Shown here piece by piece: positions 33,161-56,841 of a stretch of DNA of 64,000 bases. The stretch lies in NCBI RefSeq assembly GCF_026000115.1, contig NZ_AP026867.1:1457501-1521500 (forward strand), given 5' to 3'. Numbering within the stretch: the first letter of the stretch is position 1; the number at the start of each line of letters is the position of its first letter. The DNA is from Aureispira anguillae. GTDB lineage: Bacteria > Bacteroidota > Bacteroidia > Chitinophagales > Saprospiraceae. The notes beneath the pieces are model-generated. The model was not told the DNA's origin, searched no databases, and saw nothing but the letters and a program-made list of their open reading frames with translations. The translations under genes and the position numbers were made by a program.

Positions 33161-34582
33161 ATGGTATTTAGTTCAACAATATTTATCTTTTTATTTTTAC
33201 CAATTGTTTTATGTTTACATTCTGTATTAAAAGACCAATATCGGAATTTATTTCTTCTGTTTGCTAGCCTTTTTTTTTATGCTTGGGGAGAACAGATTTT
33301 AGTGTTGTTAATGATTGGCTCCGTTTGCCTTAATTATATCGTAGGAAATTTAATAGAGTTCTATCAGAGACAAGGACGAGAGAAGGTAGCTAAGTGGGTT
33401 CTTGGATCAGGAGTTGCAATCAACCTTTTAATATTAGGCTATTATAAGTATATCCATTTTTTAGTCGAAATTTTGACCGATCTTGGATTTACTATTAACG
33501 CAGATCTTTCTGGTATCACGCTTCCAATTGGTATTTCGTTTTTTACTTTTCAGGGGATTTCATACCTCATTGATGTCCATAGAAAAACCGTAGAAAGTCA
33601 AAAAAGTTTGATCAATTTAGGGATGTATATTTCATTGTTTCCACAGCTTATTGCGGGGCCAATTGTTCGGTATGCAGATATTACCAAAGAAATTGAAAGT
33701 CGAAAAATAACAACCGATTTATTTAAAGAAGGAATTTCTAGATTTATTATAGGACTTTCTAAAAAGATATTTATTGCCAATAATGTTGGGTTAATTGCAG
33801 ATTTAGTGTTTGCTATTCCTGCTAATGATTTACCAACCTCTTTGACTTGGATTGGTATTTTGTGTTATACCTTGCAGATTTACTATGATTTTTCAGGTTA
33901 TTCGGATATGGCAATAGGGTTGGGTAAAATGTTTGGGTTTAATTTTAAGGAAAATTTTGAACACCCTTACTGCTCAAAGTCTGTTCGGGAATTTTGGCGA
34001 AGGTGGCATATCTCATTGTCATCTTGGTTTCGAGATTATTTATATATCCCTCTAGGAGGAAATAGAAAGGGGAATTATCGCACCTATATCAATTTGATAC
34101 TTGTATTTTTTGCCACAGGACTTTGGCATGGAGCAAGCTGGAATTTTATTGTTTGGGGCTTCTTTCATGGTTTCTTTTTAATTGCAGAGAAAATAACCCC
34201 ATTTCAATTACCTGCTAAACTTCAATTTTTGAAGCGAGTCTACCTGCTTTTTGTTGTGATGATAGGTTGGGTATTTTTCCGTGCAGAAAACCTAACTTAC
34301 GCCTTAGATTACATGGCAAAGATGTTTTCGTTTGTCGGAGGAGAAATGAGCGACAATAGCCCTTTTGAGAGTTTGGATGTATGGAAGTATATCGCTATTG
34401 GACTAGGGATTTTATTTTCTATTCCTTTGCGACAATTTATAGAAGAAAAAATAAAAACCTTTACGGGCAATAGCGCTTGGTTTGTTCTTTTTAAGGAATT
34501 ACTTTATCTATTGGTTTTTGTCTGTGCAATTATCGAATTGGCACAAGCAACCTATAATCCATTTATTTATTTTAGATTTTAA
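33161..34582 (+). CDS. MBOAT-family membrane O-acyltransferase (AlgI/PatA-like)
   Basis: 473 residues with about 10 hydrophobic segments. Family signatures: FLFLPIVLCLH at the N-terminus, YYKYIHF, LPIGISFFTFQGISYLIDVHR, REFWRRWHISLSSWFRDYLYIPLGGNRKG and the catalytic ATGLWHGASWNF with H323. These proteins pass an acetyl group across the inner membrane to an SGNH-type partner that acetylates an exported polysaccharide. The next gene, 5 bases downstream, encodes that partner, so the pair is a complete transfer unit. No glycosyltransferases are adjacent, so the polysaccharide substrate cannot be named. Confidence 0.93.
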   Translation: MVFSSTIFIFLFLPIVLCLHSVLKDQYRNLFLLFASLFFYAWGEQILVLLMIGSVCLNYIVGNLIEFYQRQGREKVAKWVLGSGVAINLLILGYYKYIHFLVEILTDLGFTINADLSGITLPIGISFFTFQGISYLIDVHRKTVESQKSLINLGMYISLFPQLIAGPIVRYADITKEIESRKITTDLFKEGISRFIIGLSKKIFIANNVGLIADLVFAIPANDLPTSLTWIGILCYTLQIYYDFSGYSDMAIGLGKMFGFNFKENFEHPYCSKSVREFWRRWHISLSSWFRDYLYIPLGGNRKGNYRTYINLILVFFATGLWHGASWNFIVWGFFHGFFLIAEKITPFQLPAKLQFLKRVYLLFVVMIGWVFFRAENLTYALDYMAKMFSFVGGEMSDNSPFESLDVWKYIAIGLGILFSIPLRQFIEEKIKTFTGNSAWFVLFKELLYLLVFVCAIIELAQATYNPFIYFRF

Positions 34583-34587
34583 TAACG

Positions 34588-35877
34588 ATGAAAAGGAGCA
34601 TAATACCCTTTATAACTGCTGGATTGGTTTTTGTAGCGACTATTTTTTTTCTAAATCAGATGGTAGCGCCCTTTAGCTTGCAAGCGCTAAAAACAAAAAT
34701 ATTTACCTGTTTAATGGCGGCCACTTTTTCTATTGCGACCTTTTTGACACTTTACTTAAAAGAAGTTAAACTAGAACAGTTGAGGTCTAATTTATACATT
34801 GTTCTTTTCTTTGTTATTATACTAAGTCCAGAATTTGTAAAGCAGTTCAATCTAGAAAAGAAGATAGTGATTGACGAAAAGAGAACCTTAGCAGAAAAAC
34901 CAGCCTTTACCTTTACCAAAGATTATCCTCAAAAATATGAAGCTTATTACAATGATAATTTTGGTCTGCGTTCTAACATTATTAGTTTTACCAACAAAGT
35001 GAAGATGTCTTTTTTTAGCAGTTCTATCAATAATGAGCTGGTTAAATTTGGAGGCGATGGATTTCTTTTTTTGGCGTCAGCATATGCCATAGAAGAAAGT
35101 TATACGAATACTAACCTATTGTCACCAGAGGAGCTAGAAGCTGTCTATCAGTTGATGCTGGCTAGAAAGACGAAGTTGAACGAACAAGGAATTACTTTTG
35201 TGCAAGGGTATTGGCCCAATAAACATACTGTGTACAGAGATGAATTGCCGAGTGCTATGAAGCAGAAAATAAAAAATGATCAATCGCTCGCCAATCAAGT
35301 AATAAGCTATTTTGCAGAGAGAGGCTTAACTTTTTTGGATGTTAGCGAGGAGTTGTTAGCAGCTAAAAAAGGAACACAACTATATCAAAAATTTGATACG
35401 CATTGGAATTTAGATGGCGCTTTTGTCGCTTATCAGGCTTTTTGCAAAAAAACATTTGCCGAATTGGGCTTAACGGCTTTTAAGAAAGAAGATTTTACTA
35501 TTAAATATAAAGAAACAAGGAGGGGCGATTTGGTTTATATGTTAGGGATGGATGAGTTTCCAGGGTATTATGATGAATTGCCTACCTACACAACTAAAGA
35601 CAACCGTTTATCCTATGTATTTATGGATGCAAGTTCTTTTCCCGAAAGAACAATAATAACAGTGAATGAAAATTGCAAAAACAAGCAAGTCGCCTTAGTT
35701 TTTAGAGATTCGTATGGGAAAAACCTAATTCCCTTCTTGTCACTTCATTATCATAAAGTAGTCTATATAAAATACTCGGATAAGCCTTATTTTAATGAAG
35801 AAATGATTGCGAGAGTTCAACCAGATGTAGTCATGTCTTTGGGCTTAGAACGTTACCTGAGTTTGGTCTTAAAATAA
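34588..35877 (+). CDS. AlgJ/AlgX-like SGNH O-acetyltransferase, membrane-anchored
   Basis: 429 residues. Three hydrophobic segments in the first 90 residues (FITAGLVFVATIFFL, CLMAATFSIATFLTLYL, LYIVLFFVIILSPEF) anchor it, then a periplasmic domain. It carries the ALGX/ALGJ-type triad: D270 and H272 in FDTHWN, and S375 in FRDSYGK. GGDGFLFLASAYAIEE near 150 is the usual substrate-side motif (DGWLFL type). It starts 5 bases after the MBOAT gene. Known family role: it takes acetyl groups delivered by the MBOAT protein and adds them to a polysaccharide in the periplasm. The triple transmembrane anchor is longer than in AlgX, which has none. Confidence 0.87.
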   Translation: MKRSIIPFITAGLVFVATIFFLNQMVAPFSLQALKTKIFTCLMAATFSIATFLTLYLKEVKLEQLRSNLYIVLFFVIILSPEFVKQFNLEKKIVIDEKRTLAEKPAFTFTKDYPQKYEAYYNDNFGLRSNIISFTNKVKMSFFSSSINNELVKFGGDGFLFLASAYAIEESYTNTNLLSPEELEAVYQLMLARKTKLNEQGITFVQGYWPNKHTVYRDELPSAMKQKIKNDQSLANQVISYFAERGLTFLDVSEELLAAKKGTQLYQKFDTHWNLDGAFVAYQAFCKKTFAELGLTAFKKEDFTIKYKETRRGDLVYMLGMDEFPGYYDELPTYTTKDNRLSYVFMDASSFPERTIITVNENCKNKQVALVFRDSYGKNLIPFLSLHYHKVVYIKYSDKPYFNEEMIARVQPDVVMSLGLERYLSLVLK

Positions 35878-37781: not shown

Positions 37782-40700
37782 ATGAACTATCGCATCCATT
37801 TTTTTACTTTAAAATATGTATATATGTTGGGATATAGACAATTTTTTATTGGATTGTTGAGCTTATTTTTTTCATTTGAGAGCTTGAGTCAAACCTCAAT
37901 TTCTGGCGTTGTGAATAGCTATACAAATGTAAGTTCAATTAATCTATCTACTTGCGAAAGCTCTATTACAGTAGGTGATGCCTCTTTATTTGCCCCAGGG
38001 GATAGGGCACTTATCATTCAGATGAAAGGAGCTAATATTGATCAGACAAACACAGCTTCTTTTGGATCAATAACAAATTATAATAGTGCAGGTCTGTACG
38101 AATTTTTTACCATTATTGAAGTTAATACAGGAACCAATACCATTGTAACAGGCAGTTTTAACAATAGCTATGATCCAGCGGGTGTCGTACAGTTGGTTCG
38201 TGTTCCCAATTATGATGATGTAACCATCAATGGAACCTTGACAGGACAAGCATGGAATGGTACAACAGGGGGGATTGTTGCAATTTATGCGAGTGGAACC
38301 GTAAGTTTAGGAGCGAATATAGATGTAACGCAACAGGGATTTAGAGGTATATCAACTCCTAATTCTCCCTCAATTTGTACGGCAATGGATTATTTTTATC
38401 CTGATGCTAGTAATGATGGGGCACACAAAGGAGAGGGCATAGCACTTTCTGATCTTAATTTTTCAAAAGGAAAAGGAGCTTGGTCAAATGCTGGTGGTGG
38501 TGGTAATGCCCATAATGCTGGTGGCGGTGGAGGTGGTAATGGAGGAGCAGGAGGTCGTGGAGGCGAACAATGGCAAGGATGTGGCAATACCTTAACAGGT
38601 ACGAATGCTTTTGCCACAGGAGGAGTAGGTGGACATGCGATGCCAATAGGTCCCTCTTTTAATCGGCTGTTTTTGGGAGGAACAGGAGGATCAGGAGATG
38701 CCAACAGTGGTTTTCCTTCTAATAGTACAGAAGGAGGTGGAATTGTAATTATTAGAGCCAATAGTCTAGAGGGAAATGGTTTTAGTATTATATCGGTTGG
38801 AGGAACAGTACCTGTGAGTACTAGTGGAGCTATTGATGGCGGTTCTGGAGGAGGAGCAGGAGGGAGTGTTTGTTTGGATTTACAAACCATAGGTGCTACT
38901 AGTTTAACAGTGGATGTGCATGGAGGAGATGGTCAAGATATTGATTACAGAGGTGACGATGCCCATGGTCCTGGTGGTGGTGGTGGTGGCGGAATTTTAT
39001 GGCACAATGTGGGGACATTACCAGGCAATGTAACGGTTAATGCTTCTGGCGGTAGAGAAGGGCGCATGTTACAAACTCCTAATGCTGGTACAACAAATGG
39101 AGCATTGGCTGGAGGAAATGGACGAATCATAGCTAGTCTAACACTTCAAGAAATTGATGACAATGATAATGATGGACTGAGTGCAGATTGTGATGTAGAT
39201 GACGATAACGATGGGATTTTAGATGTGGATGAATGTCCTTGTTTGGGGCAAGAATTAATTAATGGCAGTTTTGAAGATCCAGGGGGCTTTGCTTTTGTCA
39301 ATGAAAATTCTGTACCTGGCTGGAATACAACAGCATCTGATAACTTGATAGAGTTGTGGAATTCTGGTTTTAATGGAGTGCCATCTTCGGATGGTGGTCA
39401 TTTTGCAGAATTAAATGGAAATGAAGTATCTTCTTTGTATCAAATCATTTGTACAGAACCTGGTGCTACACTTTCTTGGTCTATTGATCATAGAGGGAGA
39501 GCAGGGGTAGATGTAGCCGATTTTAAAATAGGATCATCTGTTGCTTCTGCTGTTTCTCAGCAAATTATGTCGGATGGAACATCAGCTTGGGGAACTTATA
39601 CAGGAACCTATATTGTTCCTGTTGGTCAAACGAGTACTTTTTTAGTATTTGAATCTATTTCCTCTGTAGGTGGAGCAACCCTTGGAAATTTTCTAGACAA
39701 TATTCAGGTAGTTCAGACGGGGCAGTGTGATGCTGATGGAGATGGTATTCCCAATCATTTAGACCTAGATTCGGACAATGATGGTATTCCAGACCTAGTA
39801 GAAGCAGGTGGTGTTGATGTGGATGGTAATGGACAAGTAGATGGCAATATAGATGCAGATAACGATGGGCTAATTGATCTTTATGATGCTTCTGTAGTTA
39901 GTACTACGAATGTTACTAATACATCGGGTGATGATTGTCAAACGGTAGGAAGTCCAGCACACACATTGAGTTTTACTTCTGGAACAACAGATGCTTCAAG
40001 CAATGTTACCTTGACTTTTTCCGTGACAGGGGCATATGGAATTAATTCGGCTACTTTTACACTTACAGGTGAAGGAGCTACTAATTTAGGTACCTTTAGT
40101 CGACTGAATTCAGATAATGCTACTTATCCAGATTGTGGTGTGCCTGCTATGAATTTTAGTATAACAATTTCTCAAGCTAACTGGAATTTATGGAACGATG
40201 ATGGAACTGTAGTGATTAATTATCAGGCAAATGCTGATGTTGCATCAGGTTTTTGTACTAATTCTTCTTGTATTTCGAATGTTGCAGCCAATTATCAAAT
40301 TACCAATGTTGTATCTTCTGGAAATAATATAGCCAATAGTGACAGTGATGGCGATGGCATCTTGGATGTCTTAGATTTGGATTCGGATAACGATGGAATA
40401 CCAGATGTGGTAGAAGCAGGCGGCACCGATGTAGATGGAGACGGTCTAGCAGATAACTTTGCCGATACGGATGGCGATGGCTTTAACGATGCGGTAGATG
40501 GCGATGTCGGGAACGATGGGACAGCAGAAAATAGCAGTGATGCTTTGGTCTTGACAGGAGTAGATACGGATAATGATGGCGCTCCTGATTCTTATTCCTC
40601 AGGAGATACCGATGGAGATGGGATCATGGATCAGTTGGATTTGGATGGCGATAACGATGGCATACCAGATGTGGTAGAAGCAGGCGGCACAGATGCAGAT

Positions 40701-43700
40701 GGAGATGGTCTAGCAGATAACTTTGCCGATACCGATGGCGATGGTTTTAACGATGTGGTAGATGGCGATGTCGGGAATGATGGTACGGCAGAGAATATAG
40801 CAGATGTTTTGGTTTTAACAGGAGCCGATACCAATGGAGATGGTGCCCCAGATACTTATGCAAGAGGAGATTTGGATGGCGATGGTATTCTAAATCAATT
40901 TGATTTGGATGCGGACAACGATGGTATTTTAGATGTAGAAGAAGCAGGCGGAATAGATGCCAATAGAGATGGAATAGCGGATGGTTTTGTGGATACCGAC
41001 GGAGATGGTTTTAATGATGTAGTAGATGGCGACGTCGGGAACGATGGCACGGCAGAGAATACAGCAAATGCGACCACGGTAACAGGAGCAGATGGAAATG
41101 GAGATGGAAGACCAGATACCTATCCCAATGATAATACAGATGGAGACAATAATTATAACTTCTTGGATATAGATGCGGATAACGATGGAATCGTAGACAA
41201 TACAGAAGGACAGGCAACGGCTTCTTACCTTGCCCCAGCAGGGACAGATGCGGATGGAGATGGGATAGACGATGCTTATGACAATGACGATGCAAACTTT
41301 GGCGGAGCAGGTTCAGGGATCGTACCTAATAATGCCGATGGAGTAGACAATCCCGATTATTTGGACTTGGATAGTGACAATGACGGAGAGTTGGATGAAC
41401 TAGAGGGGCACGATACAAATGGAGATGGCTTAGTAGATGGCACAGATAGCCCCAATGCGAATACAGGTTTATCAGGAGGAACAACAGATACAGATGGAGA
41501 TGGCTTGTTGGATGGTTATGATAACAATACAGCAAGTACAGATGCCACTAATACCAATTTGAATCCCAATAGTCATCCTGACGCAGATGGTCAAAATTCT
41601 GAACGAGATTGGAGAGAGGCACTAGATACGGATCAAGATGGTGTCGCTGATATAGTAGATTTAGATGATGATAATGATGGAATTTTGGATGTGGATGAAG
41701 GGCATTGTTTTTCTGCTCCTGTAGATCTAATTAATGGAACAGTGGATGTTACTAGATCGGGTTATGCTTTATCATCTGATTTCGATTATGTAGCAGCACA
41801 GGGAGGAAGCCCTTCTCCACTTGCGCCAGAGGTTTTCTTAAATGCTTATGATTCTTTAGGAGGAGCGGGGAATTTTAATTACTCATTTCCTAACCCAACG
41901 AATATTTATGCAGATGCGAGTGGACTAGTTAGTATTTCATTTTATTACTATGATAATATAGGAGGTTCAACAGGAACCTATCTAACTAGTTTTCCATTTA
42001 ATTTAATAACATCATCGGGAACAATTAATGGAACATTAGATATTTCAGGTGATGCTGCAACACTTGATGGGGGAAATTGGGTTTACAAAACAATAACTTA
42101 CGCAGTGCCTCCAAACGCTGTAGTAACCTTGATTGGGTTTACTACTCAAATGGAAGGAAATTCTAGTGGTTATAATGCTGTATTTAATCCTGTAAATACA
42201 GAGGTTTATGCTATTGCATTGGAACCAATTATTGCTTGTGCGGGAGATATTGATACAGATGGAGACGGTATACCGAATCATCTAGACCTAGATTCAGACA
42301 ACGACGGCATAGCAGATATAGTAGAAGCAGGAGGAGTGGATACAAATGGTGATGGTGTAGTAGATAATTATACGGATACGGATAACGATGGTCTAAGCGA
42401 TGAATACGATGTAGACAATGGGGGGACTGCGATAGCGAATAGTGACAGTGATGGCGATGGCATCTTGGATGTCTTAGATTTGGATTCGGATAACGATGGA
42501 ATACCAGATGTGGTAGAAGCAGGCGGCACGGATGAAAATGGAGACGGTCTAGCAGATAACTTTGCCGATACCGATGGAGATGGTTTTAACGATGTGGTAG
42601 ATGGCGATGTCGGGAACGATGGGACAGCAGAAAATAGCAGTGATGCTTTGGTCTTGACAGGAGCAGATACGGATAATGATGGCGCTCCTAATTCGTATCC
42701 CTCAGGAGATACCGATGGAGATGGGATTATAAATCAGTTGGATTTGGATGGCGATAACGATGGTATTCCAGATGTGGTAGAAGCAGGTGGCACAGATGCA
42801 GATGGAGATGGTCTAGCAGATAACTTTGCCGATACCGATGGCGATGGTTTTAACGATGTGGTAGATGGCGATGTCGGGAATGATGGTACGGCAGAGAATA
42901 TAGCAGATGTTTTGGTTTTAACAGGAGCCGATACCAATGGAGATGGTGCCCCAGATACTTATGCAAGAGGAGATTTGGATGGCGATGGTATTCTAAATCA
43001 ATTTGATTTGGATGCGGACAACGATGGTATTTTAGATGTAGAGGAAGCAGGCGGAATAGATGCCAATAGAGATGGAATAGCGGATGGTTTTGTGGATACC
43101 GACGGAGATGGTTTTAACGATGTGGTAGATGGCGATGTTGGAAACGATGGCACGGCAGAGAATACAGCGAATGCAACGACTGTAACAGGAGCAGATGGAA
43201 ATGGAGATGGAAGACCAGATACTTATCCAAACGATAACCAAGATGGAGACAACAATTACAACTTCTTGGATATAGATGCGGACAACGATGGAATCGTAGA
43301 CAATACAGAAGGGCAAGCAACGGCTTCTTACCTTGCCCCAGCAGGGACAGATGCGGATGGAGATGGGATAGACGATGCTTACGACAATGACGATGCAAAC
43401 TTTGGTGGAGCAGGATCAGGGATCGTACCCAACAATGCGGATGGAGTAGACAATCCCGATTATTTGGACTTGGATAGTGATAATGATGGTTTGTTAGATA
43501 ATCTAGAGGGACACGATACGAATGGAGATGGTCTAGTAGATGGCACAGATAGTCCAAATGCGAATACAGGTTTATCAGGAGGAGCAACAGATGCGGATGG
43601 AGATGGCTTGTTGGATGGTTATGATAACAATACAGCAAGTACAGATGCCACGAACACGAACTTAAATGGGAATAGTCATCCAGATGTAACCAATGGGGTA

Positions 43701-45872
43701 ACGATAGAGCGGGATTGGCGAGAAGGAAATACAACTTATGCAGCGAATGACATCAATACGACACCAATTAATGAGACGGCAAGTTGTAATGTCTTAACCA
43801 ACGATTGGGATCATGAAAACAATACGCAAGTATTGACCGGTAACATAACAATAGATACAGATGGAGATGGCGTACCAGAAACAGCCAATGGATTGGGAAC
43901 AGGAGTGACGGTAGGAGGAGTGAATGAAGATGGGACAGCTAATAACAATGCAGGTACCTTGACGCAAAATTCAGATGGGACGTATACATTTATACCCACA
44001 GCAAATTTTGTAGGAGAGGTACGCTATAGTTATCAAGTATGTGATAATGGGAGTCCTCAAGCTTGTGAGGAAGCATTGGTAACAATAGATGTAGAGCCCT
44101 TGCCAACCACCGATAATGGAGAATTGGCACTGGCACCAGATGCGAATGTCACCTATGACGATTTAGCAGTAAGTGGTCAAGTTTTGTCGAATGACAACGA
44201 TCCAGATGGGGATAACATCACTGTGACTGGGACAATTAATATAGACACAGATGGAGATGGAGTAGTAGATGGTACAGCAGGATTGGGAGTAGGAACAACC
44301 ATAGCAGGAGTGGATCAAAATGGAGCAGCAGTGACCAATGCAGGCACCTTGACGCAAAATGCGGATGGAAGTTATACCTTTGATCCCGTAGCAGGTTTTG
44401 TAGGAGAGGTTGTTTATGAGTATACGGCTTGTGATGATGGCGTGCCTATGAGTTGTGAAACAACAACGGTGACAATACATGTATTACCATCAGTGTACAA
44501 CAGTACAAATGCAATCGATGATGAGGAGTTTTTAGACAAAGGAACGACCTTGACGGCAAATGTGTTGGACAACGATAATGATGTAGAAGGAGATAGCCAA
44601 ATCGGAGGGGTAAGTTTGGTGAGTGGAGCAAGCCAAGGTACGGTGACTTTAAATCCAGATGGGAGTTATACGTATAGCCCAACTGATCCCAATTTTAGTG
44701 GGAACGATGAGTTTGTGTATAGCATCTGTGATGATGGAACGCCTAAAGCATGTGATACCGCAACGGTTTATCTGACAATCTTGGATGTTAATAAGGACTA
44801 TGGAGATGCGCCAGCAGCCTACGGAGTAGCCTATCATAGAGCAATGAGGGATGGAAATGTGGATAATGTACTGGATGGTGGAACAGATGTTTGGTTGGGT
44901 AGCAATACCGATTTTGAAAATGCAAGTTCAGCTTCGGGGACAGATAATTTTGACGATGGAATTAGTTTTGGAACAGGGGCAGGAGCGTTTCCAACATCTG
45001 TGCTGGCAAATCAGGTATTCAATTTAGATATTACCGTGAACTCGGCAGTGGCAGATAATGTATTTTATGGTTTGTGGATCGATTGGAACGCCGATGGGAT
45101 TTACGATGACTTTTACAATGGTTCGGTAGCGACAGCGAGTCCAACAACAACAACGGTTGCCGTAACAGTTCCAGCTACCTATCAGAGTACTCAAACGGTA
45201 AACGTACGTTTAAGAGCCGATGACGATGCTTTTGCTGTGGGAGATTTTTCAGGAGGAAGAACCAATGGTGAGGTAGAGGATTATCAAGCCCTAATCGTAG
45301 ATTTGCCCGTCGAATTATTAACTTTTACAGCTAAATTAAAAGGAAAGAATACAGGACAATTGAATTGGGCAACAGCAACGGAGCTAAATAATGCAGGTTA
45401 TGAAGTAGAGCAGGCTTTGCCAACAACAGGAGTGCCTGTCTTTAATCCGATTGGTTATGTAGAAGGAGCAGGAACGACCATTCAGGCTCAACATTATCAG
45501 TATGAAGTGCCGAATTTAGTAGCAGGGGTCCATTATTTCCGCCTGAAGCAAGTAGATTTTGATGGAACGTATGCTTATTCAAATATTCGTGCACTGAATG
45601 TAGAAGCGCCATTGGTACAAAAGCTATTTCCAACGCTTTTGCAGGAAGGAAGCAGTACGATTTATATACAAATGGCAAAAGACGATGATTACAAAATAGA
45701 AATCCTAACAGCGTTGGGGCAAGTGGTAGAGGAACGTCGTATACGCCTTCAAGCAAGTGCTTATTATGAAATGGAAGTTGATCTGGCGCATTATGTGTCA
45801 GGGGTGTATGTGGTTCGTGTGAGTGACGGCACAGGAACTTATACAGAAAAAATACGAATAAATAACCAGTAG
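37782..45872 (+). CDS. Giant TSP3-repeat T9SS surface protein, paralogue 1
   Basis: 2696 residues. The ATG at 37824 ([16 protein letters not shown]) gives a more typical signal peptide than 37782. Layout: N-terminal beta domain (40-195); glycine-rich stretch (about 236-450, many GGGGGG runs); TSP3 DxDNDG repeats; a domain with [10 protein letters not shown] (486-650, galactose-binding-like); a domain ending near 845; TSP3 array A (850-1300); a unique domain (1305-1490); TSP3 array B (1490-1985); three cadherin-like/tandem-95 domains ([12 protein letters not shown] type, to 2330); a GEVED domain ([24 protein letters not shown], 2335-2505); and a T9SS tail ending KIRINNQ. DxDxDG loops bind calcium in this family, so a rigid Ca-dependent fibre is likely. 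Adhesion is inferred. Paralogue of the gene at 46510. Confidence 0.92.
40335..41580 (+). repeat. TSP3 array A, copy 1 of intragenic direct repeat
   Basis: A 1.2 kb coding segment repeated at 42438-43683 with a constant offset of 2103 bases (701 codons), checked at both ends (AATAGTGACAGTGATGG and ATAACAATACAGCAAG). Encodes DxDNDGIPD / [11 protein letters not shown] units. Confidence 0.88.
42252..45872 (+). repeat. 3.6 kb scaffold repeat, copy 1
   Basis: Matches 50209-53829 at a constant offset of 7957 bases, checked at the start (GATAC(A/G)GAT...GACGGTATACCGAA), in the cadherin region (CAGCGAATGACATCAA at 43741 and 51698) and at the stop codon. No net insertion or deletion. One difference in the 60 bases from 45301. 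Confidence 0.9.
42438..43683 (+). repeat. TSP3 array B, copy 2 of intragenic direct repeat
   Basis: Partner of 40335-41580 in the same gene. The whole stretch from 42252 to the stop is also repeated at a fixed 7957-base offset in the next gene. Confidence 0.88.
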
Positions 45873-45955
45873 TATACTCCATTCAGCAATGTTGAATTAG
45901 TAGATGGGAGGTAGAATACCTAGAACTAGGCTTTGTCAAGATTATGGAGAAAAAG

Positions 45956-45990
45956 ACAGAACCGCTCTAATGGAGTTGGTTCTGTTTTTT
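45956..45990 (+). terminator. Rho-independent terminator after paralogue 1
   Basis: Stem ACAGAACC (45956-45963) with GGTTCTGT (45978-45985), followed by a T run to 45990 and more T-rich sequence. Confidence 0.75.
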
Positions 45991-46509
45991 ATTTTATAAA
46001 TTATACTGGGCTTATTCTTGGGTTGTATAGTAGTGTTTTATGTAGTATATATTATCTAATATTTGTTTTTTATTTATTTTAGTGCTATCATTGTAATACA
46101 GTACTTTATATATTAAGGAATAATGAGATAAGGTAGTGTATAATAACACTTAGGGAATGTGGATTTTTGCCCCAAAAAAAATCCTTTTAAAGTAAAAACT
46201 TAAAAACCATATTGAACACTTTTGCTCCTTGTATTTTAAGCAGGAAAAATTACTTTATCAATGTCTGAAACCTAAAAATGCGATGATTTAGCATTTAATA
46301 GATGGTTATAAGACCAATTAATCTTAAGTATCATTTCTTTTACACAACTAGAGTATTCTAGTTGAATACCCCTAACAAATTTATAAAAAAACAATAGGAT
46401 TTAACGCTAAAGCTGCACGGCAGCTTTAGGCTTTTATGTTTATAAGCCTAATTTGAATTGAAGTCTTTGAACGATATCCAATTCTTTTTTTTTAATAAAA
46501 ATATTAATT
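45991..46509 (+). other. Intergenic between TSP3 paralogues, with hairpins
   Basis: About 520 bases. Two hairpins are visible: GGATTTTT (46161-46168) with AAAAATCC (46177-46184) followed by TTTT, and a stronger one at 46407-46429 described separately. No ORF, and no sequence similarity to the region upstream of paralogue 1 that I can see. Confidence 0.45.
46407..46437 (+). promoter_or_regulatory. Hairpin with T tract in leader of paralogue 2
   Basis: A perfect 9 bp stem CTAAAGCTG (46407-46415) / CAGCTTTAG (46421-46429), loop CACGG, followed by GCTTTTATG. It is shaped like a terminator but sits 450 bases after the terminator of the previous gene and about 73 bases before the ATG at 46510. It could be a leader attenuator or the end of a short untranslated RNA. 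Confidence 0.45.
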
Positions 46510-49500
46510 ATGGGAGTTTTTTTACAATTTAAACAACAATGGCTCACTGCGTGCATGATTTTGTTGCTTTTGGGACAGGGGCTGTTCTCATTTGCACAAT
46601 GTGCAGGTACATTGACCTCAACCTTAGATTGGTCTGATTTTAAAGTTGCTCCGCTTACAGGAGAAAATGCCTATTTTACGATCGCTTCTAATATAAGTAA
46701 TGGAGGCCTTGCCGTAAATTATAATGTAACAGATTTATATGGGATTAGTGATAACCGTAGTAGTTCAATTATTAGTTCTACTTTTGGAGGGGTAAATGAC
46801 CAATATATCTTATATCAGAATGCGAATAACGTTAGTGAGCAATCACAACATTGTTTTCAGTTTAATCAGGCTATCGATTTTACAGTAACATTAACAGATA
46901 TAGATTCAATTGATGGGAGTTACCAAGATTCTATAGTCATTTTGGGATACAATAATGGTACATTGGTAGATATTACACCTGCAGATGTTAGTTTTAATGC
47001 TTCTTTTGTTTCTTTTAATGATGCAACCAATAGCTTTGTAGGGCTAAATAATGTAGGGAGCTCTAGTTCAGATGGGAATGTAACAATTACATTTCCTAGT
47101 CCTATTACAGAATTTTGTGTAATATATAGGAATGGGGCTGGAGTAGTTTCTAACCCAGGCAATCAACTTGTTGGAATTTCCGATTTTGCTATGACCTTCG
47201 CTGATAACGATTGTGATGGTATTGGAGATGCAGGAGATCTTGATGCAGATAATGATGGTATTGCAGATGTGAATGAGCAATCTTGTATTGCTAATCAGGA
47301 TACAATAGATTGGTCTGATTTTAAAGGTGCGTTAGTTTCAGGGCAAACTAACTATTATCAGATTGCTACGCCTGTCACAACAAACGATGGAAATGGTTTA
47401 GTTGCGTCTATGTATAATCCTTTTAATATATCAGAGGCAAGTGGAAGGAATGGTTCTATTTCCTCTGGCACATTTGGAGGTATTTCAGATCAATATTTTA
47501 TGTATCATGATAATACGAGCCAAGAACAAATGGCTATACATTGTTTTAAATTATCCGACACCTTAAGCAATTTAACGTTTACGTTGACGGATATTGATGT
47601 AAATGATTTATCTAATCCTAGTACCAATTCTTGGTTAGATAGTATCGTTGTTATGGGGTATCAGTTTGGTAAACCAGTAGATATTACGATTGCAGATGTT
47701 AGCTTCAATGCTAGTTTTGTTGATTTTGATGATGCAACGAATAGTTTTAGTGGCTTGCAGAGTGTGGCTTCTACTTCTTCGGATGCTAATGTAACCATTA
47801 CTTTTCCTGAAGGGGTAAATGAAATTTGTATAAAATATGGGCATGGTCTTGCTGTACAAGCTGATCCTGGAGCAAATATAGTAGGCATTTCGGATTTTAC
47901 CTTTACTAAAAATGACTGTAACTTAGATACAGATGGAGATGGGGTTCCTAATCATTTGGATTTGGATTCAGATAATGATGGTATTCCTGATTTGGTAGAG
48001 GTAGGTGGAGTAGACACCAATGGGGATGGCGTGGTAGATGCTATCGTAGATGTGGATGGAGATGGTTTGACAGATGGTTATGATTCCAATTCTAACACAT
48101 TAAATACTGCTAGCACGGTTGGAGACTGTTCAGGAACAGTTGTTGGCTACAATCATAATGTAGCACTAGCTGTTGCTACTATAGATGCTGTTGATGACCC
48201 TGTTGTTACATTTTGCCTAGAAGGTGATTATGGAAATGGTTCAACTGAAATGATAGAAGTTTATGGAGAAGATGCTGTTTTAATCGCTTCTTTTACAAAG
48301 CATTCTTCTAATAACCCTGCTTATGGTGATTGTGGAAGTCCTGCTGTTTGTTTTAAAGTGACGATTCCTTTAGCGTCTTGGAATTTATGGAATGATGATG
48401 GATCTGTTAGCATGCGATTTACTCCAACAGCGGATGTGAATTTTTGTACGGATTATTCTTGTCTAGGAACGGTTTCTGTTGAATATATGACACCCAATGC
48501 TAATAATACAGCCCTTGTATTAAAGGATGCAGATAATGATGGTGTACCCAATCATTTAGATTTGGATGGCGATAACGATGGCATTCCAGATGTGGTAGAA
48601 GCAGGAGGCACGGATGCAGATGGAGACGGTCTAGCAGATAACTTTGCCGATATAGATGGCGATGGTTTTAACGATGTGGTAGATGGCGATGTCGGAAACG
48701 ATGGTACGGCAGAGAATACGGCAAATGCGACCACGGTAACAGGAGCCGATACCAATGGAGATGGTGCCCCCGATTCTTATCCAAACGACGATTTAGATGG
48801 CGATGGTATTCTAAATCAATTTGATTTGGATGCGGACAATGATGGTATATTAGATGTAGAGGAAGCAGGCGGAATAGATGCCAATAGAGATGGAATAGCG
48901 GATGGTTTTGTGGATACCGACGGAGATGGTTTTAATGATGCTGTAGATGGGGATGTTGGGAACGATGGCACGGCAGAGAATACAGCAAATGCGACCACGG
49001 TAACAGGAGCAGATGGAAATGGAGATGGAAGACCAGATACCTATCCCAATGATAATACAGATGGAGACAGCAATTATAACTTCTTGGATATAGATGCGGA
49101 TAACGATGGAATCGTAGACAATACAGAAGGACAGGCAACAGCTTCTTACCTTGCCCCAGCAGGGACAGATGCGGATGGAGATGGGATAGACGATGCTTAC
49201 GACAATGACGATGCAACCTTTGGCGGAGCAGGTTCAGGAATTGTACCCAACAATGCCGATGGAGTAGACAATCCCGATTATTTGGACTTGGATAGTGACA
49301 ATGACGGAGAGTTGGATGGACTAGAGGGGCACGATACAAATGGAGATGGCTTAGTAGATGGAACGGATAGCCCCAATGCGAATACAGGTTTATCAGGAGG
49401 AACAACAGATACCGATGGAGATGGCTTGTTGGATGGTTATGATAACAATACAGCAAGTACAGATGCCACCAATACCAATTTGAACCCTAATAGCCATCCT

Positions 49501-52500
49501 GATGAAGATGGTCAAAGCTCGGAGCGAGACTGGAGAGAGGCGCTAGATACGGATCAAGATGGTGTGATGGATATCGTAGATTTGGATGACGATAACGATG
49601 GAATTTTGGATGTGGATGAAATGGATTGTAGTGGTTTTTCTCTTGATTTGTCTTCGCTCTCTAATGGTACACCAAATATAGTGAATCAATCGATTAATTC
49701 TTTGGTGAACTTTAGTGCTACAATAAATGGTAATTCAACAAATATTAGTGTGCCTGCGGGGAATGGTTTAAGTGAGTTATCGATGGGTGTCACAACAACA
49801 TTAGGTGCAGCAAGGACAGAGTTTATGGAATATAAATTTACATTTAACTATCCTGTCAATATTCGGTTCGAGCAAGGAAACGCAAATGGGTGGTTTGATG
49901 ATCAAGAAGAGTGGAATATTACAACGTCTTCAAGTACATGGAATGTGACAACTCCAGTCATTACGCATAGTGCTGTGATTGGTAGTCCTGCTGCTGAGTT
50001 ACAAAATATAGTGGGAAATGGTACCTCTGATGTTACATTTGTTCCAAATGTATCAGGAGGTCATGTTCCTATAGGGACTTCTGAATGGGAGATTACAGGA
50101 AATGGCATTAGAGCGTTTACCATTAATTTTATGGAGTCGTTAACAAATGTTTCGTCAGGACTTGGTCAGAAATCTGTTATTCGAATCTCTATTCCTTGTT
50201 TACCAAGAGATACGGATTTAGACGGTATACCGAACCATCTAGACCTAGATTCAGACAACGACGGCATAGCAGATATAGTAGAAGCAGGAGGAGTGGATAC
50301 AAATGGCGATGGCGTAGTAGATAATTATACGGATACGGATAACGATGGTCTAAGCGATGAATACGATGTAGACAATGGGGGAACTGCGATAGCGAATAGT
50401 GATAGTGATGGCGATGGCATCTTGGATGTCTTAGATTTGGATTCGGATAACGATGGAATACCAGATGTGGTAGAAGCAGGCGGCACGGATGAAAATGGAG
50501 ACGGTCTAGCAGATAACTTTGCCGATACCGATGGCGATGGTTTTAACGATGTGGTAGATGGCGATGTCGGAAACGATGGGACAGCAGAAAATAGCAGTGA
50601 TGCTTTGATCTTGACAGGAGCAGATACGGATAATGATGGCGCTCCTGATTCTTATTCCTCAGGAGATGCAGATGGAGATGGTGTACCCAATCATTTAGAT
50701 TTGGATGGCGATAACGATGGCATTCCAGATGTGGTAGAAGCAGGAGGCACCGATGCAGATGGAGATGGTCTAGCAGATAACTTTGCCGATACCGATGGCG
50801 ATGGTTTTAACGATGTGGTAGATGGCGATGTAGGGAATGATGGTACGGCAGAGAATATAGCAGATGTTTTGGTTTTAACAGGAGCTGATACCAATGGAGA
50901 TGGTGCCCCAGATACTTATGCAAGAGGAGATTTGGATGGAGATGGTATTCTAAATCAATTTGATTTGGATGCGGACAACGATGGTATTTTAGATGTAGAG
51001 GAAGCAGGCGGAATAGATGCCAATAGAGATGGAATAGCGGATGGTTTTGTGGATACCGACGGAGATGGTTTTAACGATGGCGTAGATGGCGATGTCGGGA
51101 ACGATGGCACGGCAGAGAATACAGCAAATGCAATGACTGTAACAGGAGCAGATGGAAATGGAGATGGAAGACCAGATACTTATCCAAACGATAACCAAGA
51201 TGGAGACAACAATTACAACTTCTTGGATATAGATGCGGACAACGATGGAATCGTAGACAATACAGAAGGACAAGCAACGGCTTCTTACCTTGCCCCAGCA
51301 GGGACAGATGCAGATGGAGATGGGATAGACGATGCTTACGACAATGACGATGCAAACTTTGGTGGAGCAGGTTCAGGAATTGTACCCAATAATGCGGATG
51401 GAGTAGACAATCCCGATTATTTGGACTTGGATAGTGATAATGATGGTTTATTAGATAATCTAGAGGGGCACGATACGAATGGAGATGGTCTAGTAGATGG
51501 CACAGATAGTCCAAATGCGAATACAGGTTTATCAGGAGGAGCAACAGATGCGGATGGAGACGGCTTGTTGGATGGTTATGATAACAATACAGCAAGTACG
51601 GATGCCACCAATACCAATTTGAATCCCAATAGTCATCCAGATGCAACCAATGGGGTAACGATAGAGCGGGATTGGCGAGAAGGAAATACAACTTATGCAG
51701 CGAATGACATCAATACGACACCAATTAATGAGACGGCAAGTGGTAATGTCTTAACCAACGATTGGGATCATGAAAACAATACGCAAGTATTGACAGGTAA
51801 CATAACAATAGATACAGATGGAGATGGCGTACCAGAAACAGCCAATGGATTGGGAACAGGAGTGACGGTAGGAGGAGTAAATGAAGATGGGACAGCTAAT
51901 AACAATGCAGGCACTTTGACGCAAAATTCAGATGGGACGTATACATTTGTCCCCACAGCAAATTTTGTAGGAGAGGTACGCTATAGTTATCAAGTATGTG
52001 ATAACGGGAGTCCTCAAGCTTGTGAGGAAGCATTGGTAACAATAGATGTAGAGCCCTTGCCAACCACTGATAATGGAGAATTGGCACTGGCACCAGATGC
52101 GAATGTCACCTATGACGATTTAGCCGTAAGTGGTCAAGTTTTGTCGAATGACAACGATCCAGATGGGGATAACATCACTGTAACAGGGACAATCAATATA
52201 GACACAGATGGAGATGGAGTAGTAGATGGTACAGTAGGATTGGGAGTAGGAACAACCATAGCGGGAGTGGATCAAAATGGAGCAGCAGTGACCAATGCAG
52301 GCACCTTGACGCAAAATGCGGATGGAAGTTATACCTTTGATCCTGTAGCAGGTTTTGTAGGAGAGGTTGTTTATGAGTATACGGCTTGTGATGATGGCGT
52401 GCCTATGAGCTGTGAAACAACAACGGTGACAATACATGTATTACCATCAGTGTACAACAGTACAAATGCAATCGATGATGAGGAGTTTTTAGACAAAGGG

Positions 52501-53829
52501 ACGACCTTAACGGCAAATGTGTTGGACAACGATAGTGATGTAGAAGGAGATAGCCAAATCGGAGGGGTAAGTTTGGTGAGTGGAGCAAGCCAAGGTACGG
52601 TGACTTTAAATCCAGATGGGAGTTATACGTATAGCCCAACCGATCCCAATTTTAGTGGGAATGATGAGTTTGTGTATAGCATCTGTGATGATGGAACGCC
52701 GAAAGCATGTGATACCGCAACGGTTTATCTGACGATCTTGGATGTTAATAAGGACTATGGAGATGCGCCAGCAGCCTACGGAGTAGCCTACCATAGAGCA
52801 ATAAGAGATGGAAATGCGGATAATGTACTGGATGGTGGAACAGATGTTTGGTTGGGTAGCAATACCGATTTTGAAAATACAAGTTCAGCTTTGGGGACAG
52901 ATAATTTTGACGATGGAATTAGTTTTGGAACAGGGTCTGGAGCGTTTCCAACATCTGTGTTGGCAAATCAGGTATTCAATTTAGATATTACCGTGAACTC
53001 GGCAGTGGCAGATAATGTATTTTATGGTTTGTGGATCGATTGGAATGCCGATGGGATTTACGATGACTTTTACAATGGTTCGGTAGCGACAGCGAGTCCA
53101 ACAACAACAACGGTTGCCGTAACAGTTCCAGCTACCTATCAGAGTACTCAAACGGTAAACGTACGTTTAAGAGCCGATGACGATGCTTTTGCTGTGGGAG
53201 ATTTTTCAGGAGGAAGAACGAATGGTGAGGTAGAGGATTATCAAGCCCTAATCGTAGATTTGCCCGTCGAATTATTAACTTTTACAGCTAAATTAAAAGG
53301 AAAGAATATAGGACAATTGAATTGGGCAACAGCAACGGAGCTAAATAATGCAGGTTATGAAGTAGAACAGGCTTTGCCAACAACAGGAGTGCCCGTCTTT
53401 AATCCGATTGGTTATGTAGAAGGAGCAGGAACGACCATTCAGGCTCAACATTATCAGTATGAAGTGCCGAATTTAGTAGCAGGGGTCCATTATTTCCGCT
53501 TGAAACAAGTAGATTTTGATGGAACGTATGCTTATTCAAATATTCGTGCACTGAATGTAGAAGCGCCATTGGTACAAAAGCTATTCCCAACGCTTTTGCA
53601 GGAAGGACGTAGTACCGTTTATATCCAATTGGCAAAAGACGATGATTACAAAATAGAAATCCTAACAGCGTTGGGGCAAGTGGTAGAGGAACGTCGTATA
53701 AGCCTTCAAGCAAGTGCTTATTATGAAATGGAAGTTGATCTGGCTCGTTATGCGTCAGGGGTGTATTGGGTTCGTGTAAGCAATGGTCTTAGTGCTTATA
53801 CTAAAAAAATACGGATAAATTATGAATAG
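46510..53829 (+). CDS. Giant TSP3-repeat T9SS surface protein, paralogue 2
   Basis: 2439 residues. Signal peptide 1-30 ([12 protein letters not shown]). Two copies of an approximately 205-residue domain open the protein (TLDWSDFK...[10 protein letters not shown]...VGISDF and TIDWSDFK...[10 protein letters not shown]...VGISDF), each followed by DxDxDG repeats. Then come a domain shared with paralogue 1 (CxGxx..NLWNDDG..), TSP3 array A' (675-1040), a unique domain (about 1040-1235, [14 protein letters not shown]...), TSP3 array B', three cadherin-like domains, a GEVED domain and a T9SS tail ending RINYE. From codon about 1234 to the end it is nearly identical to the preceding gene, base for base. 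It lacks the glycine-rich region and N-terminal domain of paralogue 1. Probably another Ca-stiffened adhesin presenting different domains on the same stalk. Confidence 0.92.
48541..49500 (+). repeat. TSP3 array A' (paralogue 2, copy 1)
   Basis: Repeated at 50680-51639 with a constant offset of 2139 bases (713 codons), checked at GGTGTACCCAATC and ATAACAATACAGCAAG. It shares third-codon differences with array A of paralogue 1 (CCTATCCCAATGATAATACA) rather than with its own neighbour B'. Confidence 0.85.
50209..53829 (+). repeat. 3.6 kb scaffold repeat, copy 2 (includes TSP3 array B')
   Basis: Partner of 42252-45872 at +7957 bases, ending exactly at the stop codon. Non-homologous sequence begins immediately after both stops and immediately before both starts of the block. 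Confidence 0.9.
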
Positions 53830-54386: not shown

Positions 54387-54806
54387 ATGGAATGTAAGAC
54401 CAAAGAAATAACGGTAACCCTTATACAAGATCAGATTGTAAAAACAGCGGTTAATGAAAATATTACAGAGTTAACCTTAGAAGGAGTAGACGAGGTTATT
54501 GCCGCAACCAATAAGGTTTATTTATCCAATGATAAACCTAAAGTTGCGCTCATTTGTGCGCCTTCATTTTATATAAAAAAGGATGTATTAAAAGGTTATG
54601 CTGCCAATAGGGAAGTTGAGGCTTTGGCTGTTGCTATTGTAACGCCTTCTTTTGGTTCTCAAATCATGGGAAATTTATTGCTGACACTCCGAGGGAGAGT
54701 TTTGGCTTTGAGTAATGATAAAATTGAACCGTCTAAAGTTTTTAGGGATGAAAAAAAAGCAATCAAGTGGTTGTTAGGGCATCTTGGAGTAGCAGAAGAA
54801 CGTTAA
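54387..54806 (+). CDS. Small STAS/SpoIIAA-like protein of unknown function
   Basis: 139 residues with no signal peptide. The pattern (strand ITVTLIQDQIVKTAV, helix EVIAATNKVYLS, strand KVALICAPSFYIKKDVLKGYA, helix REVEALAVAIVTPSFGSQIMG, then KAIKWLLGHL) is the alternating alpha/beta layout of SpoIIAA/STAS-like domain proteins, which are common as single-domain proteins in Bacteroidota and end in the W-L-L segment. No phosphorylatable DS(S/T) motif is obvious. The downstream secreted PEP-synthase-like gene begins 1 base after its stop, so the two are translationally linked. Function is not known. Confidence 0.7.
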   Translation: MECKTKEITVTLIQDQIVKTAVNENITELTLEGVDEVIAATNKVYLSNDKPKVALICAPSFYIKKDVLKGYAANREVEALAVAIVTPSFGSQIMGNLLLTLRGRVLALSNDKIEPSKVFRDEKKAIKWLLGHLGVAEER

Positions 54807-54807
54807 A

Positions 54808-56841
54808 ATGAGAATAAATTCTTACCGTAGATCTATGAAAAAAGATAGCTTTTTAATTCATTGCTTTTTTATTAGCCTCTTTTTTTGTGGTAAAATTTTG
54901 GCTCAAAATGAGTATAACGCAAAGGATTATCAGTTTATTTCTTATGATAAAATTCCTACTTGGAAAGTAATTGTAGCAGATTGGGATCAATCAGAACCTT
55001 CTGTCCACCTATTTGATACAGAGCGATACAAGGGACATGGCAATTATGTTTGTTATGGAATGAAAACAGGACTTAGGTTTCCTCAATTTAAGGAGTTGGT
55101 AAGGCATCCTAGCCATCGTGTTTATTTACCTGTTTTTTTGTATGATTTAAGAAAGATGCCTATGGTGATTGAGGGAGAAACATATACTTGGGCGGTTCGA
55201 TTAGAGCATTATGATTATACCGATGATCCTTATTCTATGGAGCAAACTTTTGTTCGTTTGATGAAAACCATGGAAAAATACATTAGAAAGCAGGCAGGTA
55301 ATATAGGAAGGGGAATTGCCCTATTAGCAAGTTCCTCAGCAGCCTTGCCAAATAAAACAATTCGTAAAGGATTAGAACAGCAAGGATACCAAACAATGGC
55401 ATTGTATGAATTAATTGCTGCCTTGGAAAAGTCCCCCCAAGAAGCAATAACTCCAACAAAAAATAAAGAACAATCATTTGCTGCCAAATTATTAAATACA
55501 GGAATAGCTGTTGGTTATCTTAAATGGATAAAAACAGGGGAGGAAAATAAGGTGACCAGCAATTTTAAAAATATCTTACTTTACGAAAGCCTTCCTTATC
55601 GTGTCCCAATTGCGAATGGAATTATTACAATAGAACCACAGACACCACTTTCTCATATTAATTTATTAGCAAAAAATAGAGGAACAATAAACGCTTATTT
55701 GCAGGCTAAATTGCCACAAGATTTTTTGCAAAAATATGGCAATAAATTGGTGAAAATCATCGCTAAAAAAGAAAATGGAAAGGATGCTTTGGAGATCGAA
55801 TTAATTTCAGAACGAGAGGCACAAGAACACTGGAAAAACCAACGCAAATTAAGGGTCAAGATTCCTAAGCCTGATTTGTCAGTAGCTTCTTTTTCGCACT
55901 TTGAATTAGGGGCTCGTACGGTACAAACCGTAAATTGCATTGGGGCAAAGGCTGCCAATTATGCTTGGCTACAGCATGAATTACCTGAATATACTCGTCC
56001 TGGTTTTGCCATCCCTTTTTATTTTTATTTCAAAACGGTTAAAAGCTGTGGAGCAGATCAGTTAATTGAATCCTTATTAAAGGATCAGTTCAAACTTTCT
56101 TCGAAAGCGCTTAACAAAAGGTTAGAAAGTATACGAAATAGAATTTTAACGGCAAGTCTAGATGAACGCATTTATAGAGAATTAGAATTGATTGGCGAAA
56201 AATATTACAAAGGAAAGCGTGTGCGTCTTCGAAGCTCTACTAATTGTGAAGATTTGGCAGATTTTAATGGTGCAGGTTTGTATGTTTCTAAGGGCTTTCA
56301 ACAAGGTTGTGAACGAAAAGTTGTACAAGAAAAAATTTTGAAGGTCTATGCTTCTTTATGGCTTTCAAGAGCCTTTGAAGAACGTGCTTTTTTTGGAATC
56401 GATCATAGACAGGCAGCGATGGCTATTTTAATCAATGAGGCTTTTCCTCAAGAATATGCCAATGGTGTTGCCTTAACCATTCCGAATCCAACAGGAACGC
56501 CAAGTATTCATATTAATACTCAATATGGAGAGGTTTCTGTGACCAACCCTAAAGATGCTAGCCGCCCAGAAATTATTTATTTTAGACAGTTGGATAGTAA
56601 GTGGTATGTGACCGAATCTAAATCTTCTTTGCAGAATATTTTTGTGGATAATCCACTACTCACACCACTTGTTCGGCAATTGCAAAAGGCTTGTGCAGAG
56701 ATAGACGCTTCTCTGCGCAAAAAACTTATCAATCCAGAAAATTATGGGGTTGATGTAGAGTTCAAAATTATGAAAAAAGGTGCTGTTTTTAAGCTCTATA
56801 TCAAACAAGCAAGGTTGTTAAATACAGTCTTACCCGAATGA
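54808..56841 (+). CDS. Exported PEP/pyruvate-binding (PPDK N-like) protein
   Basis: 677 residues from 54808. The second ATG at 54835 (MKKDSFLIHCFFISLFFCGKILAQ) gives a cleaner signal peptide and may be the true start. About residues 270-300 hold TPLSHINLLAKNRGT with H283, matching the phosphohistidine loop of PEP-utilising mobile domains. From about 385 onward lies the PEP/pyruvate-binding ATP-grasp domain (GAKAANYAWLQ, PGFAIPFYFY, VRLRSSTNCEDLADFNGAGLY with R473, R475 and S476-S477, then GVDVEFKI). The order (mobile domain first, ATP-grasp second) is reversed relative to PEP synthase, and the PEP-binding TIM barrel is absent. Export of an ATP-grasp protein is unusual. The substrate is unknown; PEP synthesis itself is unlikely. 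Confidence 0.85.
   Translation: MRINSYRRSMKKDSFLIHCFFISLFFCGKILAQNEYNAKDYQFISYDKIPTWKVIVADWDQSEPSVHLFDTERYKGHGNYVCYGMKTGLRFPQFKELVRHPSHRVYLPVFLYDLRKMPMVIEGETYTWAVRLEHYDYTDDPYSMEQTFVRLMKTMEKYIRKQAGNIGRGIALLASSSAALPNKTIRKGLEQQGYQTMALYELIAALEKSPQEAITPTKNKEQSFAAKLLNTGIAVGYLKWIKTGEENKVTSNFKNILLYESLPYRVPIANGIITIEPQTPLSHINLLAKNRGTINAYLQAKLPQDFLQKYGNKLVKIIAKKENGKDALEIELISEREAQEHWKNQRKLRVKIPKPDLSVASFSHFELGARTVQTVNCIGAKAANYAWLQHELPEYTRPGFAIPFYFYFKTVKSCGADQLIESLLKDQFKLSSKALNKRLESIRNRILTASLDERIYRELELIGEKYYKGKRVRLRSSTNCEDLADFNGAGLYVSKGFQQGCERKVVQEKILKVYASLWLSRAFEERAFFGIDHRQAAMAILINEAFPQEYANGVALTIPNPTGTPSIHINTQYGEVSVTNPKDASRPEIIYFRQLDSKWYVTESKSSLQNIFVDNPLLTPLVRQLQKACAEIDASLRKKLINPENYGVDVEFKIMKKGAVFKLYIKQARLLNTVLPE

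Follow-up and report, generated by a model that had tools for sequence, protein, structure and literature searches.

Two adjacent giant genes of Aureispira anguillae, here called A and B, probably belong to a small Aureispira family of modular surface adhesins that are exported by the type IX secretion system (T9SS), in which repeat arrays would serve both as stalk and as recombination arms and the domains held in slots between them would be exchanged. We give this reading a probability of roughly 70%. The genes are oriented head to tail within a window of 64,000 nucleotides (NCBI RefSeq assembly GCF_026000115.1, contig NZ_AP026867.1, positions 1,457,501 to 1,521,500, forward strand), and where an initial annotation of this DNA had placed them there are indeed two intact open reading frames (ORFs), of 2696 aa (A) and 2439 aa (B). 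The putative rod would run from an N-terminal domain through DxDxDG arrays broken by slots to a cadherin-like part, a GEVED domain and a sorting tail, the slots housing globular domains of ~150–230 aa (Table 1).

The DNA of A and B is 96.65% identical across 3614 bp reaching from the second array almost to the C-terminus—bearing out the near-identical scaffold of the initial annotation—and 93.6% identical in 1072 bp of the first array. The slot that separates the two arrays is bounded by the match edges 41700/42251 in A and 49621/50208 in B. The cargoes within it had been called unrelated, and they score no better against each other than shuffled sequence (Smith–Waterman Z = 1.7–1.8); the cargo of a third gene, C, gives Z values of −1.3 to −1.4 against that of A and 2.0 against that of B. 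The N-terminal domains had been called unrelated as well, which holds for the first domains—A has an AgmC_N-like one, B a ~200-aa domain in duplicate—but not for the upstream insert pair (A 704–851, B 527–672), whose members are homologous (39% identity, Z = 33.8).

Both proteins start with a hydrophobic, signal-peptide-like segment (judged by eye), have an acidic repeat in the middle, and carry cadherin-like/tandem-95, GEVED and T9SS type A sorting domains at the end. The GEVED and cadherin-like matches exceed the Pfam cut-offs, and the annotated sorting tail passes the TIGR04183 cut-off of 23 bits in A and B (29.5 and 23.9 bits) as well as in C (29.6) and in a fourth gene, D (39.6); the Pfam model for this tail, PF18962, stays just under its cut-off of 27 (25.5 in A, 26.4 in B). 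Export of these proteins to the surface by the T9SS is what such tails suggest. The label of TSP3 arrays stands as far as motif density goes, with 18 DxDxDG motifs in the 499 aa of the second array of A, organised in 264-bp higher-order units, against a mean of 1.1 in shuffles, but the Pfam TSP_3 model matches neither array of A, even at E ≤ 10; hence, we call the arrays TSP3-like. From the motif, they are predicted to bind Ca2+, and probably do so.

The genome (7.79 Mb in three contigs; the copy count is a lower bound) holds further copies of the scaffold. Gene C (2555 aa) lies on the same contig 5.4 Mb further along (2.2 Mb in the opposite direction, should the contig be circular), and its slot is the same as in A and B, filled with a third unrelated cargo. 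Gene D (4069 aa) lies on a 122-kb contig. Matches to the scaffold tail occur at 48 places in all at E ≤ 0.001, many of them to the tail alone. Just downstream of C, a 423-aa gene (L021:9567–10838) encodes a lone slot-3-type domain—31% identical to the cargo of A—with the same kind of sorting tail and no stalk; it might be a cassette source or a short relative. In D, aa 1305–2572 (L022:4554–16763) comprise five copies of an insert domain, pairwise 94.5–99.4% identical and spaced at 276 aa with repeat stretches between them, a recent internal amplification. The best sequence match of this insert domain to solved structures is weak (hexosaminidase chains, E 0.16).

Across the genus, a 518-aa cadherin–GEVED query matches six of nine Aureispira genomes at E ≤ 1e-30 (12 places), including strain CCB-QB1; these 12 places and B make up the 13 family members compared here, none omitted. 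At the level of the family Saprospiraceae, 16 of 199 genomes, two Aureispira genomes included, match at E ≤ 1e-40, and the matches outside the genus are 36–62% identical and mostly partial. Named genomes have 32 matching loci; the nearest come from Aureispira sp. CCB-QB1 and from bins of Aureispira or Saprospiraceae, and a few further groups show weaker, partial ones. Below, Q1 and Q2 denote genes of CCB-QB1 (genome G001), F1, F2 and F3 those of genome G002, and K1 and K2 those of a metagenome bin (G007).

Slot 3, located 21 residues past an ERDWR motif, is found in four of the 13 members (A, B, C and, from another genome, K2), and its four cargoes are mutually unrelated (Z about −1.3 to 2.1); that of K2 resembles a D domain (29%). 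By a motif-gap rule the 13 proteins have 24 slots, 15 of which are framed by cysteines at the array/insert junction, five of these 15 being the recent copies inside D. For the slot-3 cargo of A, the small gene beside C (31%) is the only relative in the nine genus genomes, and homologues occur in two of 395 phylum genomes, its own genome being one. The cargo of B has no relative in the nine genus genomes—a search with no positive control, B itself lying outside the searched sequence—and one weak partial match in the 395 phylum genomes. In a search for viral relatives of the array, one stretch fitted a pattern and none was confirmed; plasmid relatives of the D scaffold comprise 86 records, all below 60% identity, and among the 15 of these listed none is from Aureispira and most are annotated as tandem-95 or Ig-like.

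Within the A. anguillae genome, the stalk copies differ in a patchwise manner. Codon profiles compare A, B and C from the second array onwards. In a stretch of 240 codons there is no nucleotide difference between B and C but 22 between A and B; the GEVED block shows the reverse, with none between A and B (39 codons) and 54 between B and C (38 codons). Among 344 informative sites, A is the odd one 22 times between nt 960 and 1680 (B and C 0 times each), and C is the odd one 148 times between nt 2520 and 3200 (A 9 and B 5 times). The pattern changes 84 times along the three genes against 170.9 (standard deviation 7.5) after shuffling, and none of 20,000 shuffles is as low. The longest B–C identical run spans 31 polymorphic sites (shuffle maximum 10) and the longest A–B run 59 (shuffle maximum 33), the longest A–C run of three sites being not unusual. 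Such a mosaic can hardly come from one single tree.

The phylogenies of single parts conflict as well. The cadherin part unites A, B and C in one clade (100/100), with 99–100% identity among them and 72–75% to the members Q1, F1, M1, F2 and F3. In the GEVED tree, C groups with F2 and F3 (89/91; 80–81% identity) and is only 71–72% identical to A and B, which are 80–81% identical to Q1, F1 and M1; H1 combines an AgmC-type N-terminus with a GEVED part of the C/F2/F3 type (100/99). Homologous genes in the same arrangement stand upstream of C and of F3 (74%). The near-identity of A and B with C in arrays and cadherin DNA persists despite the C locus being megabases away, and in G002 zero-difference patches alternate with diverged ones between F2 and F3, 1.77 Mb apart. 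Genes K1 and K2 share 1050 codons without a difference, but since they come from a metagenome bin, with its assembly caveat, this perfect identity was kept out of the main evidence. The alignments show array and cadherin DNA to be homogenised within a genome, and N-terminal and GEVED parts not to be—what would be expected of a gene-conversion mosaic.

Exchange of an insert can be followed between CCB-QB1 and G002, whose compared flanks are 99.2–99.8% identical, yet which are classed as distinct species. At locus 1, their genes Q1 and F1, each of 7212 bp, differ at 164 sites. As many as 137 of these fall into one 557-bp block (gene nt 1788–2344, aa ~596–781), which is an insert, and 27 into the other 6655 bp, the block being flanked by perfectly identical arms of 428 and 209 bp. 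As a control, none of 303 100-bp windows outside the family genes has five or more mismatches between these genomes, and eight of 151 inside them have ten or more. Within the block, 51 changed codons are synonymous and 45 nonsynonymous, 74 of the 137 differences sit at third codon positions, and the differences include all six base-pair types, 54 of them without A. Because of this balance of synonymous and nonsynonymous changes and the presence of all base-change types, the block looks like an imported allele, not like hypermutation; a diversity-generating retroelement, for whose reverse transcriptase no search was made, is disfavoured by the same substitution pattern, which is neither adenine-biased nor mainly nonsynonymous.

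A whole gene also differs between these relatives: Q2 (7.6 kb; L055:3035–10663) lies in an 8.7-kb stretch of CCB-QB1 that is 290 bp in G002 (L122), with flanks 99.5% identical. About 130 bp upstream of F2, G002 carries a DDE transposase gene (L057:11149–12429) that has no match in the corresponding CCB-QB1 stretch (L124), where its flanks meet directly. Two CCB-QB1 contigs (L123 and L124) stop inside the counterparts of F2 and F3 at the same array sequence, as is expected if near-identical arrays broke the assembly. Across species, parts occur in swapped combinations: A joins an F1-like N-terminus (75% identical to that of F1 and Q1) with an F3-like insert (73%), and C joins an F3-like N-terminus (70%) with an F1-like insert (79%), i.e., the opposite combination. 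As far as sequence comparison can tell, insert exchange is well supported.

The picture of changing domains on one fixed stalk that the initial annotation had drawn is, hence, partly supported. Further copies with other cargo, the insert replaced between relatives and the swapped combinations across species speak for it, and what was found is neither a lack of copies with identical inserts everywhere nor simple divergence. Two parts had to be amended: there are several slots along the chain and not one variable end only, and only inside one genome can the stalk be called fixed, since its copies overwrite each other. Between relatives, a replaced insert was seen in one gene pair; in the two other pairs, partial in CCB-QB1, the inserts are unchanged.

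We propose that RecA-type homologous recombination in the near-identical arrays drives both gene conversion between paralogues and the acquisition of DNA from other strains, each slot having on either side hundreds of near-identical base pairs that could serve as arms. With the arrays as arms, a slot domain could be exchanged while reading frame, stalk and export tail stay. The rods would be displayed by the T9SS and their arrays stiffened by Ca2+, and the slot and N-terminal domains might bind glycans or proteins on prey, kin or substrate surfaces, so that exchange would alter the binding repertoire. Adhesion, and the setting of prey or surface specificity that the initial annotation had considered, are putative roles. 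As to a fold, models of insert 2 and of the slot-3 domain of A are all-beta or nearly all-beta at low confidence, the former predicted from a four-row alignment and the latter from a single sequence. Foldseek gives the slot-3 model eight matches at E ≤ 0.001: seven carbohydrate-binding modules from families 16 and 32 (9–12% identity; best E 3.4e-4) and an unrelated eukaryotic complex. This resemblance is the sole hint at recognition and, as such low-confidence models often match falsely, a lead only. Sequence searches against solved structures had no hit below E 0.1 with three inserts, nor one at E ≤ 0.01 with the array.

Several observations weigh against the proposed exchange of displayed domains. 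The main weak point left is the reliance, for exchange between close relatives, on a single genome pair and a single fully assembled gene. Single-domain replacement was seen in one of the three comparable G001/G002 gene pairs: the F2 and F3 pairs, both partial in CCB-QB1, have unchanged inserts, and their dense difference patches sit in arrays, near CCB-QB1 contig ends. For the locus-1 block no donor was found in either genome, the next-best match being 36%, which makes this event an import and not an exchange from paralogue to paralogue. The swapped combinations across species could also be explained by independent loss and gain of inserts. In the GEVED comparison, the unrooted tree does not join A and B with Q1, F1 and M1—that link being one of percent identity only—and a 100/100 split parts A, B, C, F2, F3 and H1 from the other seven rows. 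Microsynteny of the A/B locus with F1 is weak, comprising one homologous neighbour, 45% identical and on the opposite strand. On the functional side, none of the 10 scanned segments of A, B and C reaches a Pfam cut-off, and the structure models are poor (mean predicted local distance difference test scores of 47.6 for insert 2 and 44.0 for the slot-3 domain of A). Finally, gene conversion among repeats can be neutral, and selection for variety is therefore not established.

This last point leads to the strongest competing explanation, a neutral by-product: near-identical arrays would recombine simply as repeats do, with inserts merely tolerated and no selection for new binding. Patches do strike the arrays too, the F2 array for instance differing at 59 of 150 nt between CCB-QB1 and G002, and K1/K2 and F2/F3 are likewise homogenised. 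Yet the sole fully assembled difference between the two genomes spans a domain and not the arrays, and no two of the four genes found to have slot 3 carry the same cargo there. We regard neutrality as quite conceivable, though not as the account to be favoured.

The proteins might also be structural or motility surface fibres—gliding tracks or parts of grappling hooks—with the inserts acting as spacers and not as adhesins. The AgmC_N match and the weak CglD match to models of gliding proteins fit such a role, as does the reported use of the Aureispira T9SS in predation. However, both matches stay below the equivalog cut-offs: the AgmC model NF047640 scores 192.7 bits in A (E 9.7e-57) and 176.2 in D (E 1e-51) against 275, and the CglD model NF033765 scores 23.5 bits in C (E 1e-5) against 400. 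Replacement of an insert between close relatives would be unexpected for a spacer, and we consider this explanation doubtful.

Collapsed or chimeric repeats in the assemblies could fake identity or swaps, and CCB-QB1 is indeed a draft with contigs ending inside two family genes; the difference-free K1/K2 stem from a metagenome bin. But G000, the A. anguillae assembly, and G002 have few contigs (three and two), the Q1 insert lies within an 82-kb contig, and CCB-QB1 holds no second copy of the G002 allele (Q1 itself 79%, next 36%) that could have been misplaced; misassembly of the locus-1 difference is unlikely, and artefact as a general explanation highly improbable. The pair A/B itself probably did come from duplication, because the genes are adjacent and share GEVED domain (97%) and tail (92%), but a recent tandem duplication followed by ordinary divergence of unconstrained parts deserves next to no credence: cargoes without detectable similarity stand beside 94–97% identical DNA, an edge that point mutation hardly makes, and the conflict of B=C with A=B segments is not explained by point divergence, so that unrelated cargoes, sharp edges and conflicting segments all disfavour it.

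Table 1. Features of genes A and B, with positions counted from the first nucleotide of the window.
Feature	Position	Strand	Evidence
Gene A, 2696 aa, T9SS-tailed giant surface protein	37782..45872	+	ORF, NCBIfam tail
A AgmC_N-like N-terminal domain, aa 39-412	37896..39017	+	NF047640 192.7 bits, E 9.7e-57
A insert 1, aa 486-649, cysteine-framed	39237..39728	+	no Pfam match at E <= 1
A insert 2, aa 704-851, F3-type domain	39891..40334	+	73% to F3 of G002, 39% to B insert 2
A first DxDxDG repeat array, 264-bp higher-order unit	40347..41699	+	
A slot-3 cargo, aa 1308-1488	41703..42245	+	
A second DxDxDG repeat array	42252..43748	+	
A cadherin-like/tandem-95 and GEVED domains	43749..45302	+	Pfam GEVED at 45066-45287
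A T9SS type A sorting tail	45657..45860	+	TIGR04183 29.5 bits, cut-off 23
Gene B, 2439 aa, T9SS-tailed giant surface protein	46510..53829	+	ORF, NCBIfam tail
B two copies of ~200-aa domain (48% identical), short repeat stretch between	46510..47919	+	
B insert 2, aa 527-672, homologue of A insert 2	48088..48525	+	
B first DxDxDG repeat array	48526..49620	+	
B slot-3 cargo, aa 1039-1233	49624..50208	+	
B second DxDxDG repeat array	50209..51705	+	
B cadherin-like/tandem-95 and GEVED domains	51706..53259	+	Pfam GEVED at 53023-53244
B T9SS type A sorting tail	53614..53817	+	TIGR04183 23.9 bits, cut-off 23

Elsewhere in the window, two further giant ORFs of 2508 and 2702 aa (3811–11337 and 13361–21469) are weakly alike (22%), the first with weak SprB, RHS-repeat and PKD-like matches. 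Upstream of A (33161–35877), an MBOAT acyltransferase gene adjoins an AlgX-like SGNH gene, a pair of the polysaccharide-acetylation type. Downstream of B (54387–56841), a small gene with a DUF7793 match just below cut-off is followed by a PPDK_N-domain gene.

Giant T9SS proteins with repeats occur commonly in Bacteroidota, and most of them lack an explanation. Among possible counterparts, AgmC and CglD are adventurous gliding proteins of Myxococcus origin; A and D have the AgmC N-terminal domain and C the weak CglD match, but beside their sub-equivalog scores the Aureispira proteins differ in carrying a T9SS tail. The SprB-type gliding adhesins of Flavobacterium are, like A and B, giant, repetitive surface proteins exported by the T9SS; neither A nor B, however, has an SprB repeat match at E ≤ 0.01, and their sorting signal is type A. 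A long conserved scaffold with an exchangeable functional domain is also the build of Rhs/CDI polymorphic toxins and of RTX adhesins that vary between strains, such as LapA, a likeness limited by the variable parts of A/B-type proteins being internal and several per chain. Some of these proteins might conceivably be part of the grappling hooks reported in the 2024 ixotrophy study.

The nearest described case among those found appears to be the modular exchange of gingipains and HagA in Porphyromonas gingivalis, with the same logic and a different build. There, Kgp, RgpA and HagA have adhesin modules in common, and strains differ in Kgp only in the adhesin domain at its C-terminus, unlinked to the catalytic variants, which is put down to rearrangement, allelic exchange and gene conversion (PMC5266723). 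A conserved C-terminal domain, modules common to paralogues, mosaic ancestry and replacement of a single domain are common to both systems. By contrast, gingipains are proteases with cleaved adhesin domains and not array-stalked rods, and Aureispira has unrelated cargoes in one slot together with a stalk homogenised across loci megabases apart. Among the literature matches listed—mostly open-access, and by their titles and the starts of their abstracts—none describes an exchange of this kind, be it in Aureispira or in T9SS proteins with an array stalk.

A. anguillae is a marine bacterium with prey-catching strains among its relatives. In Aureispira, the T9SS has a part in predation (PMC12421860), and a cited title names CCB-QB1 for ixotrophy. 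A Ca2+-dependent T9SS stalk would fit this context of predation. That selection keeps a double role of the arrays—Ca2+-stiffened stalk and DNA homology arms—as an open recombinational cassette system whose common slots and interchangeable recognition domains would keep re-aiming the T9SS rods of an ixotrophic predator towards new prey or surfaces is a bolder idea, and we think it rather unlikely. Still, the arrays have the look of arms by which the stalk is kept while the displayed domain changes, in a genus known for Ca2+-dependent capture of prey. With this, the vague label of an 'adhesin' becomes one of defined slots and domains, and the family offers a place to ask whether predators tune capture through recombination.

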